NCBI RefSeq assembly: GCF_000498575.2
Contig: NZ_AWSQ01000006.1
Span: forward strand, 220,432-284,431
Origin: Pseudomonas taeanensis MS-3
GTDB taxonomy: Bacteria > Pseudomonadota > Gammaproteobacteria > Pseudomonadales > Pseudomonadaceae
Direction: 5' to 3'
Length of the DNA: 64,000 nt
Below, piece after piece: positions 39,094 to 56,904 of the stretch. A program made the translations under genes and the position numbers. The notes below the pieces were generated by a model. That model was not told the origin of the DNA, made no database searches, and saw nothing but the letters and a program-made list of their open reading frames with translations. Each line of letters opens with the position of its first letter. Position 1 is the first letter of the stretch.

Positions 39094-40542
39094 ATGCAAT
39101 GGGAAACCGTGATCGGGCTGGAAATCCACGCACAGCTCAGCACCCAATCGAAGATCTTCTCCGCCAGCGCCATCGCCTTCGGCGCCGAGCCGAATACCCA
39201 GGCCAGCCTGATTGACCTCGGCATGCCTGGCACCTTGCCGGTGCTCAACGCCGAAGCGGTGCGCATGGCCTGCAAGTTCGGCCTGGCGATCGATGCCGAA
39301 ATCGCCGGCAAGAACATCTTTGCGCGCAAGAACTACTTCTACCCGGACCTGCCCAAGGGCTACCAGACCAGCCAGATGGATGACCCCATCGTCGGCAAGG
39401 GTTTCCTCGACATCACCCTGGAAGACGGCAGCCAGAAGCGCATCGGCATCACCCGTGCGCACCTGGAAGAAGACGCCGGCAAGAGCCTGCACGAAGACTT
39501 CCACGGCATGAGCGGCATCGACCTCAACCGCGCCGGCACGCCGCTGCTGGAGATCGTCTCCGAACCGGACATCCGCAGCGCCAAGGAAGCGGTAGCCTAC
39601 GTCAAGGCGATCCACGCCCTGGTGCGGTATCTGGGCATCTGCGACGGCAACATGGCCGAAGGCTCGCTGCGCTGCGACTGCAACGTCTCGGTACGCCCGG
39701 TCGGTCAGGCCGAATACGGCACCCGCGCCGAGATCAAGAACGTCAACTCGTTCCGTTTTATCGAGAAGGCGATCAATCATGAGGTGCAGCGGCAGATCGA
39801 GCTGATCGAGGACGGCGGCAAGGTGGTGCAGGAAACTCGCCTGTACGACCCGAACAAGGACCAGACCCGCTCCATGCGCAGCAAGGAAGAAGCCAACGAT
39901 TACCGCTACTTCCCCTGCCCCGACCTGCTGCCGGTGATAATCGAGCAGAGCTTCCTCGACGAGGTACGCGCCAGCCTGCCGGAATTGCCGGTGCAGAAAC
40001 GCGCACGCTTCGAGGCCGAGTTCGGCCTGTCCGCCTATGACGCCGACGTGCTGGCAAGCAGCCGCGAGCTGGCCGACTACTTCGAGGCGGTCAACAGCGT
40101 GTGCGGCGACGCCAAGCTGGCCGCTAACTGGGTGATGGGCGAGCTGTCCAGCCTGCTCAACAAGGACAATCTGGAGATCCAGCAATCGCCGGTCTCCGCC
40201 GCGCAACTGGGCGGGATGATCCAGCGCATCAAGGACAACACCATCAGCGGCAAGATCGCCAAGATGGTCTTTGAAGCCCTGGCCACTGGCGAAGGTGCAA
40301 CGGCTGACGAGGTGATCGAGAAGAAGGGCCTCAAGCAGGTCACCGATTCTGGCGCCATCGAGAAGATGCTCGATGAAGTGCTGGCGGCCAACGCCGAGCA
40401 GGTCGAACAGTACCGCGCCAGCGATGAAGCCAAGCGCGGCAAGATGTTCGGCTTTTTCGTCGGTCAGGCCATGCGCGCCTCCAAGGGCAAGGCCAACCCG
40501 GGGCAAGTGAACGAATTGCTGAAAAAGAAACTCGAAGGCTAA
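39094..40542 (+). CDS. gatB: Asp-tRNA(Asn)/Glu-tRNA(Gln) amidotransferase subunit B
   Basis: 482 aa. N-terminal kinase-like cradle ([29 protein letters not shown]) and C-terminal helical YqeY-like tail ([34 protein letters not shown]). Phosphorylates and amidates misacylated tRNA, essential for Gln-tRNA or Asn-tRNA in bacteria lacking the direct synthetase. Start ATG 39094, 11 bases after gatA. Confidence 0.97.
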
Positions 40543-40560: not shown

Positions 40561-40587
40561 CGCCGGGCTTGCCCGGCGTTGTTTTAT
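40561..40587 (+). terminator. Terminator of gatCAB
   Basis: CGCCGGGC and GCCCGGCG pair around TT and are followed by TTGTTTTATT. Confidence 0.8.
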
Positions 40588-40606
40588 TCAGCGGAGAACC
40601 CGACCG

Positions 40607-41056
40607 ATGCCCACTCGTAGCCCGGATGCAATCCGCGGCCATTGCCACCCCCGGAATTCATCCGGGCTACAGCTGCGCACACTGATCCAGCGCGGAGCGA
40701 TCCTACTGGCTCTGTTCGGCATACTTGCCGGCTGCGCCGGTCATCGTTTCAACCAGGGTGGTTACAGTGCCGAGGGCAAGGCGTCCTATTACGGCGCGCG
40801 ACACCACGGCAAGAAAACCGCCAGTGGCGAACGCTTCGACCAGCACGCACTCACCGCCGCCCACCGCAGCCTGCCCTTCGGCAGCCGGGTGCTGGTGACC
40901 AACTTGCGCAATGAACACAGCGTAGTGGTGCGCATCAATGATCGCGGCCCCTACTCCAGAGGGCGGATCATCGACCTGTCGAAAGGTGCCGCCGAGAGAC
41001 TTGGCATGCTGCGCGCAGGCGTAGTGCCGGTGCGCGTGCAACAACTGGCGGACTGA
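40607..41056 (+). CDS. RlpA-like double-psi beta-barrel lipoprotein with a repeat-encoded N-terminus
   Basis: 149 aa from ATG 40607 (GGAG ten bases upstream). After about 22 residues encoded mainly by an intergenic-type repeat there is a hydrophobic helix and a lipobox (ALFGILAGC), then a DPBB domain: [19 protein letters not shown], and [18 protein letters not shown] with the putative catalytic Asp. RlpA-family proteins act on septal or naked-glycan peptidoglycan; this is a short homologue without a SPOR domain. CTG codons after the repeat (40672, 40681) are possible alternative starts. Confidence 0.8.
40617..40670. repeat. Palindromic repeat, copy 1, inside the RlpA-like gene
   Basis: The left arm GTAGCCCGGATGCAATCCG and the right arm CCGGAATTCATCCGGGCTAC flank a 15-base spacer. 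Total 54 bases, a multiple of three, so the reading frame is preserved through it. Confidence 0.85.
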
Positions 41057-43715: not shown

Positions 43716-43784
43716 GTAGCCCGGATGCAATCCGGGGCAGGTTCTCAACTGCGCCGCAGAGTTCCCGGATTACATCCGGGCTAC
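43716..43784. repeat. Palindromic repeat, copy 2
   Basis: GTAGCCCGGATGCAATCCGG (from 43716) faces CCGGATTACATCCGGGCTAC (to 43784) around a spacer of about 28 bases. It lies in the 208-base gap between the AEC gene start and the roxR stop. Confidence 0.85.
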
Positions 43785-50167: not shown

Positions 50168-50328
50168 GCACAACTCCCGTAGCCCGGATGCAATCCGGGG
50201 AAACCATTTCGCAACGACCTAGAGCAGTCCCCGAATTTCATCCGGGCTACGCAAGACTGCATAACCCCCTACAACAACAGCGCCTGGCCATGCAGCCCGG
50301 CGCGCCGATCCAACCGTTGGAGTACTGA
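50164..50328 (+). CDS. Possible 54-residue ORF through repeat copy 3
   Basis: The ATG at 50164 overlaps the second dppA stop codon (ATGA) and the frame stays open to TGA at 50326, six bases before dppB. The repeat is read as VARMQSG. No known protein resembles it. The coupled start may be a relic of an older gene junction, so I list it as doubtful. Confidence 0.18.
   Translation: MSTTPVARMQSGETISQRPRAVPEFHPGYARLHNPLQQQRLAMQPGAPIQPLEY
50179..50250. repeat. Palindromic repeat, copy 3
   Basis: GTAGCCCGGATGCAATCCGG faces CCGAATTTCATCCGGGCTAC with a spacer of about 31 bases, in the 167-base gap between the second dppA and dppB. Confidence 0.85.
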
Positions 50329-52292: not shown

Positions 52293-52353
52293 GTAGCCCG
52301 GATGCAATCCGGGACCGCCCCCCATGAATCGCCCCGGATTGCATCCGGGCTAC
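52293..52353. repeat. Palindromic repeat, copy 4, at the dppD start
   Basis: GTAGCCCGGATGCAATCCGG faces CCGGATTGCATCCGGGCTAC around a spacer of about 20 bases. It is 12 bases downstream of an SD-equipped ATG (52281) and upstream of the GTG at 52371. Confidence 0.88.
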
Positions 52354-56841: not shown

Positions 56842-56904
56842 GTAGCCCGGATGCAATCCGTGTTCATGCGCTCTCTGGCCGGCCGCGAATTACATCTGGG
56901 CTAG
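56842..56904. repeat. Palindromic repeat, copy 5, degenerate
   Basis: The left arm GTAGCCCGGATGCAATCCG is intact; the right arm CGAATTACATCTGGGCTAG has three or so changes. It lies in the 101-base gap between pxpA and the downstream-strand flavoprotein gene. Confidence 0.75.

Follow-up and report, generated by a model that had tools for sequence, protein, structure and literature searches.

The REPINs of Pseudomonas are described in the accessible part of PMC3116915 as mainly extragenic, just 14 of the most abundant 16-mers overlapping genes. One such repeat in the DNA analysed here (a stretch of 64,000 nucleotides from Pseudomonas taeanensis MS-3, below called the window) is read in frame shortly after the start codon of a small lipoprotein gene. 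Is this copy translated, or is the open frame across it incidental, and what keeps it in place? Judged from the comparison of related loci, the REPIN is old and probably translated.

The Lipoprotein Gene and Its Surroundings

The gene lies downstream of gatB, the end of which served as the anchor for orthologous loci. The region contains the following features:

39094..40542, + strand: gatB (Asp/Glu-tRNA amidotransferase subunit B), open frame named by sequence recognition; the upstream neighbour
40561..40588, + strand: terminator-like hairpin GCCGGGC-TT-GCCCGGC, then a T-rich stretch, read from the sequence between gatB and the lipoprotein gene
40593..40596, + strand: Shine-Dalgarno-like GGAG, with a 10-nt gap to the ATG
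40607..41056, + strand: RlpA-like (DPBB) lipoprotein gene, 149 codons and a stop; PF03330 95.5 bits (cut-off 28.8), TIGR00413 145.9 bits (cut-off 82.15)
40694..40735, + strand: hydrophobic core and lipobox L-A-G-C, from the translation, the motif recognised by eye; the codon for Cys43 is at 40733
40733..41053, + strand: predicted mature lipoprotein, with the DPBB domain at residues 55-144

The frame is open from the ATG at 40607-40609 to the stop ending at 41056, and after the repeat it reads L-R-T-L-I-Q-R, a hydrophobic stretch, the lipobox and the DPBB domain. A hydrophobic core followed by a lipobox cysteine is the arrangement of a lipoprotein, and this cysteine is kept in all 27 carriers of the repeat described below. 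The protein shares the DPBB domain and the TIGR00413 match with the RlpA septal ring lytic transglycosylase family, passing the cut-off for the latter, but it is short and reaches only 109.3 of the 201 bits set for the canonical RlpA equivalog PRK10672. The searched genomes also contain a second, longer-framed DPBB match, which is presumably the canonical RlpA. Hairpins comparable to the terminator-like one are visible in many orthologous gatB-rlpA loci. In the window (40561-40606) some 20 bases separate its end from the lipoprotein start, which is scant space for a promoter.

The Repeat and Its Copies in the Genome

A preliminary description of this DNA had placed a 54-base repeat copy in frame ten bases after the Shine-Dalgarno-equipped ATG 40607, giving the protein a 22-residue prefix ahead of the lipoprotein signal helix. 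Direct reading confirmed the former and translation the latter. The repeat begins ten bases past the A of the ATG and contributes to codons 4-22. Its left end is GTAGCCCGGATG (40617, + strand), and the reverse complement of this sequence forms its right end (40659, - strand), so that two inverted GTAG-type REP arms make up a 54-nt REPIN at 40617-40670. The repeat and its relatives in the window are:

40617..40637, + strand: start-proximal REP arm, 21 nt; 0.90 changes/site, third positions with 8 changes in 7 sites
40638..40649, + strand: REPIN spacer, 12 nt; 6.58 changes/site, length fixed in 27/27 carriers
40650..40670, + strand: distal REP arm, 21 nt, inverted; 2.33 changes/site
43716-43784, 50179-50250 and 52293-52353: further two-arm REPINs of the same family
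56842-56853: single REP core of the same family

The window holds nine occurrences of GTAGCCCGGATG at a tolerance of one mismatch, all nine exact, against 0.33 expected, and none of 100 shuffles reached nine. The whole genome contains 53 (26 + 27) GTAGCCCGGATGC cores versus 1 + 0 for the reversed control pattern, and a 62-nt query gave 66 matches in it, a figure that counts both strands and many places twice. Among the fetched loci of this genome and the window, 26 distinct two-arm copies were found, 51-72 nt long; ten have a length divisible by three and two are exactly 54 nt. Inverted GTAG-ended arms and many genomic copies are thus both present as in other REPINs, whereas an extragenic location is not, the copy being in frame inside the lipoprotein gene. 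On sequence and copy number 40617-40670 is still to be classed as a REPIN copy, "extragenic" denoting the usual place of the family. An Rfam search around the repeat gave four sub-threshold matches and none at the gathering score. The genome has two Y1_Tnp (PF01797) genes, and the stretches fetched around both (L215, L216) are without an exact GTAGCCCGGATG. An E. coli RAYT is reported, in the part of PMC8266576 available, to cut at a CT on either the 5' or the 3' side of the REP. The window has a CT one base ahead of GTAG, which fits this report and proves nothing.

Eight long open frames around REPIN loci of the same genome were compared with Pfam. Seven are without a family, while the eighth is a phosphoribosyltransferase. 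In that case (L202/L203, contig C1 near 923210) the REPIN lies in the open frame just upstream of the phosphoribosyltransferase start, and no start codon precedes the repeat. The enzyme's own start thus appears to lie after its repeat, making this locus a non-coding counterpart to the lipoprotein gene. The eight frames are a subset of the REPIN loci, and the lipoprotein gene is therefore not claimed as the only case.

Occurrence of the Repeat among Orthologues

Orthologous loci were collected from a protein search of 199 genomes of the genus (among the matches listed), from 28 further genomes, from contigs of named genomes, from DNA relatives and from chosen regions. The 186 loci with a match to the mature part reduced to 162 distinct ones, 115 of which are linked to gatB. 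The 47 loci left out have no gatB within 900 nt; they belong mostly to other phyla, lie at contig ends (L069, L074) or are paralogues (L197, L198). The repeat is present in 27 of the 115 distinct gatB-linked orthologues among the matches listed, a fraction that is no prevalence, since REP cores were the reason for choosing most of the 28 further genomes, and the repeat itself contains one of the six peptide patterns used. In all 27 its place, orientation, 54-nt length and frame are identical, and codons 4-22 contain no stop, although they exist in 24 distinct versions. The carriers include P. tumuqii (L040), P. xionganensis (L045), P. khazarica (L052) and P. mendocina (L064). The distance from the gatB stop to the start codon takes 12 lengths among them, representing all three classes modulo 3.

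Because the carriers were found through an in-frame peptide motif, out-of-frame copies were sought in a separate scan. From the last 60 bases of gatB to the mature part, the other 88 orthologues contain no REP copy within 6 mismatches of 21 in any frame or orientation. The best match had seven mismatches (5 of the 88), a level also reached by 18 of 440 shuffled intervals; six or fewer were seen in one of the 440. All copies of this REP family found at the locus are hence in frame. As is the mark of a coding, in-gene REP, the insertion is in frame in the gene of a protein with a recognised family and is kept in 27 of 115 relatives.

Start Codon and Signal Peptide

If the repeat is translated, ribosomes would have to start ahead of it. 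Over the rlpA tree of the 27 carriers the start triplet has changed once in its three sites (ATG to TTG in L014, TTG also being a valid start). Codons 2-3 have 24 changes in six sites on the same tree, and the 12 bases before the start have 2-9 changes per site, counts that are inflated by comparing these bases without gaps despite variable spacing. GGAG is found 8-10 nt upstream of the start in 26 of the 27 carriers; the remaining one (L174) has GGGA. Apart from L174, any further ATG, GTG or TTG that stands in frame ahead of the cysteine lies at codons 2-3, inside the repeat, or at codon 26 or later in or beside the hydrophobic core. No plausible alternative start was found in 26 of the 27.

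The preliminary description had allowed for a bypass of the prefix by an in-frame CTG start. The positions it gave (40672 and 40681) are one base off, the correct ones being 40673 and 40682, and the idea gained no support: the other clade of carriers, with 19 members, has not retained these CTG codons, and start and frame are common to all 27. A CTG bypass is thus rejected as a general explanation. The sole case that fits a downstream start is L174 (genome G345), in which an ATG preceded by GGAG stands at codon 28, after the repeat, and would give a peptide like that of the repeat-less L193. There the repeat may be a leader or an optional extension. The locus is a natural hybrid, with the repeat and its own ATG in frame ahead of the second, GGAG-preceded ATG of an L193-like rlpA allele.

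The predicted signal peptides of the carriers have 35 (19 cases), 41 (three) or 42 (five) residues. For the repeat-less orthologues the start was taken as the closest ATG on the upstream side, or as a GTG/TTG if a purine-rich site accompanies it, a rule that left one of the 88 without a start. The other 87 have predicted signal peptides of 14-34 residues with a median of 16, the comparison being limited in that the rule picks the shortest possible peptide, so that real repeat-less signal peptides may be longer. Orthologues sharing the long N-terminus of the carriers but lacking the repeat, which according to the preliminary description would have refuted its reading, were not seen among these 87. 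Between the repeat and the lipobox cysteine there is no Arg or Lys in 19 of the 27 carriers (13 residues in the 19-member clade), so that the basic residues of their n-region are those encoded by the repeat. Of these, Arg10 and Arg16 are each conserved in 26 of all 27 carriers, and residue 4 is Arg in 23. The earlier view of a long hydrophilic front on the lipoprotein signal peptide accordingly stands, the repeat being in frame. That this front is a damaging accident finds no support, as 27 of the 115 orthologues keep repeat, frame and start; such conservation argues against impaired export.

Base Changes and RNA Structure

Changes were counted by parsimony on the 27-taxon rlpA tree, and the count was repeated on a gatB tree. 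The values listed above for proximal arm, spacer and distal arm refer to the former; on the gatB tree they are 0.90, 7.5 and 2.33 changes/site. Codon positions 1, 2 and 3 of the mature part have 0.98, 0.72 and 4.04 changes/site on the rlpA tree, and 1.16, 0.76 and 4.83 on the gatB tree. In the repeat, approximately 147 parsimony changes have produced no stop, while about three would be expected, since some 2.1% of single changes make one. These changes are distributed over the three codon positions as 50, 44 and 53. This absence of codon-phase bias means that purifying selection at the amino-acid level is not visible across the whole repeat, and such selection over its entire length was rejected as an explanation. 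Among the carriers compared, what is held is the frame and the arms; the spacer is free except for its length.

The two arms, equivalent as REPs, differ in how well they are kept. The proximal arm has 19 changes versus 49 in the distal one (p 0.0004 on the assumption of independent changes, which may not hold given shared history), and mismatches to the REP consensus number 15 versus 50 of 486 cells each, these cells coming from related sequences. Five of the eight third-position changes in the proximal arm fall at the hairpin loop base. The total is lower than in every one of the 92 seven-codon windows of the mature part, the minimum there being 18 and 19 on the two trees. Third positions of the distal arm have 17 and 19 changes, with 0 and 1 of the 92 windows as low. 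Synonymous conservation is therefore not limited to one arm, but merely stronger in the proximal one. For the start-proximal arm it suggests an extra constraint at the nucleotide level, or a process specific to the repeat.

An obvious candidate for such a constraint is RNA structure. Of the 189 pairs in the proximal stem, 182 are preserved. Compensatory double changes were found in neither arm hairpin, and in one cell of the long pairing among the 27 carriers, so that there is no covariation proof of an RNA structure. Accessibility of the ribosome site was compared with synonymous recodings in 16 of the 27 orthologues; the native sequence lay above most recodings in three and below most in three, and accessibility was rejected as the reason for the hairpin for want of a consistent effect. 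In nine of the 16, none of the 60 synonymous recodings reached the stability of the native 120-nt fold. In four others (L010, L039, L186, L188) at least nine of the 60 were as stable as the native fold, and the long hairpin is consequently no fixed feature. The repeat may have a role in RNA. Tentatively, and with considerable doubt, the start-proximal arm might be of dual use, encoding part of the basic n-region and at the same time forming an mRNA hairpin that controls translation or mRNA level, both demands together keeping a once-mobile repeat fixed across Pseudomonas species.

History of the Insertion

The carriers do not form one clade. Presence and absence of the repeat require no fewer than 11 changes with the gatB tree (p 7e-6) and no fewer than six with the rlpA tree (p 2e-10), and a single clade was rejected on both, these being quick trees with SH-aLRT support only. 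L038 and L060 have near-identical rlpA genes but distant gatB genes, so that gene exchange accounts for part of the patchiness; in this pair a repeat-bearing gene has apparently been exchanged between species. The flanks around the start are common to the window and to L045 of the other clade, and decay of the distal arm is common to L010 and L013 and also to L040 and L042. One old insertion, followed by gene exchange and losses, would fit place, length, flanks, decay and the L038/L060 pair. REP cores are spread over the genome in all 22 carriers whose genomes were included in the REP census, the other five lying outside it.

Variants of the locus were also observed. In L041 (ATGCCGACTAGTAGCCCGCTG) the repeat seems to have been deleted, with GTAGCCCG remaining as a scar, and L016 may be an empty or an emptied site. 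In L190/L074 (P. indoloxydans; contig start, about 1-180) the repeat is cut, and no more than its last few bases precede the lipoprotein signal. Where the proximal arm and the start of the gene would be, the region near the contig start has different sequence. This reads MKLKRIGVDLAKQVFQVHGVD on the reverse strand, which we take to resemble the N-terminus of an IS110-type transposase; Pfam gave no family for these 31 residues. Insertion of an IS into the REPIN is possible in this case. Other lineages (L021, L025, L029 and others; L017, L020, L049) have palindromic repeats of other kinds, either GCGGGCTTGCCCGC-like or GTAGGATGGG...CCCATC-like, in the gatB-rlpA gap ahead of the gene, which suggests that repeats of several families have landed there.

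Interpretation and Alternatives

We regard it as likely that an old REPIN has been kept here as coding sequence, read from ATG 40607 and forming the basic n-region of a long lipoprotein signal peptide. The REPIN would have entered the small RlpA-like lipoprotein gene long ago, about ten bases past the start codon. Its frame would have been readable and its length a multiple of three, and it would since have been retained as coding sequence. Translation would begin at ATG 40607 and run across the repeat, and the repeat-coded peptide would serve as the basic n-region of a signal peptide of unusual length. After export and lipidation, signal peptidase II would take off the repeat-coded part by cutting before Cys43, leaving a mature protein without the repeat peptide, which would explain why the insertion was tolerated. 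Translation, export, lipidation and cleavage are what we infer from these sequence comparisons, together with a single old insertion that was spread and lost by gene exchange.

It is most improbable that the repeat is an untranslated 5' leader followed by a downstream start (CTG 40673, CTG 40682 or a different codon), its open frame being incidental. Such a leader would agree with the opinion, in the accessible part of PMC3733652, that most REPs at the 5' ends of genes are non-coding, with the GGAG-preceded ATG after the repeat in L174, with the repeat-less orthologues beginning close to the hydrophobic core, and with the REPIN in open frame just upstream of the phosphoribosyltransferase start. 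What speaks against it is that frame, length and start are identical in 27/27 carriers, and that the 19-member clade, besides not retaining the CTG codons, would have no Arg or Lys left before the core. The repeat could also owe its retention mainly to a function in RNA or DNA, for instance as a hairpin after the start that tunes translation or mRNA stability, coding being secondary. The low third positions of both arms and the well-kept proximal stem favour this, yet it seems very unlikely, as the arm hairpins lack compensatory double changes and the long pairing has a single cell of them, ribosome-site accessibility is not consistently altered, recodings match the native fold in four of 16 orthologues, and an RNA or DNA element alone does not account for the strict frame.

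Repeated REPIN insertion at a hot spot, or overwriting by other REPs of the genome, would make the likeness among carriers a reflection of the mobile family and not of selection. The patchy distribution on both trees, the fast spacer, the REP cores in all 22 censused carriers and the other palindromic repeats in the same gap of other lineages are all in line with this, and we consider it unlikely rather than far-fetched. The identity of nucleotide position, orientation and 54-nt length in 27/27 carriers is against it, as are the start flanks common to the window and L045, the shared distal arm decay in two pairs of loci, and the unequal numbers of changes in arms that are equivalent as REPs (with the same proviso on independence). 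Part of the patchiness is moreover explained by the gene exchange seen with L038 and L060. The old, translated insertion read from ATG 40607 thus remains the preferred explanation.

Relation to Known Repeats and Significance

The repeat resembles the Pseudomonas REPINs as described in the accessible part of PMC3116915 in having two inverted GTAG-ended arms, a spacer, many copies per genome and a predicted hairpin; it differs from them in lying inside a gene, in frame, at one site common to many species. GTAG REPs inside ORFs are dealt with in PMC3733652, according to the available text of which in-frame REPs or REP dimers encode 20-30 residues, N-terminal cases outnumbering C-terminal ones. 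Most N-terminal REPs are there thought to be non-coding or misannotated, with expressed Rickettsia proteins carrying an N-terminal RPE-1 as a counter-case. Compared with the N-terminal REPs of that account, the evidence from cross-species frame, start and signal peptide in the present case favours coding. The lipoprotein gene may itself be among the in-gene REPs listed in that paper.

The Rickettsia palindromic elements are described, in the accessible part of PMC10969869, as coding palindromes of about 150 bp placed along various proteins. They have in common with the present repeat that a palindromic mobile repeat is kept in frame in a protein gene, while the repeat studied here is shorter, unrelated in sequence and located in a predicted cleavable signal peptide. 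Its ends are GTAG, unlike the CGTC-type end given for Rickettsia RPEs in the same part of PMC3733652. No published account of this gene with a REPIN in its signal peptide was found in the titles and abstract openings of the open-licence literature. What appears new is one case, followed across species, in which translation is favoured alike by the place and frame of the repeat, by the start codon and by the composition of the signal peptide.

REPINs are usually seen as intergenic mobile sequences, and REPs at gene starts are mostly ascribed to misannotation. Here a REPIN looks like real coding sequence, traceable across species, in a segment expected to be removed after export. A cleaved signal segment may thus be a cheap route for mobile repeats into proteins. 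The conservation of synonymous sites, strongest in one arm, would make a role of REPs in mRNA testable at a single locus, where natural variants exist in which the pairing has been lost, the repeat has been lost, or a start has been gained after the repeat.
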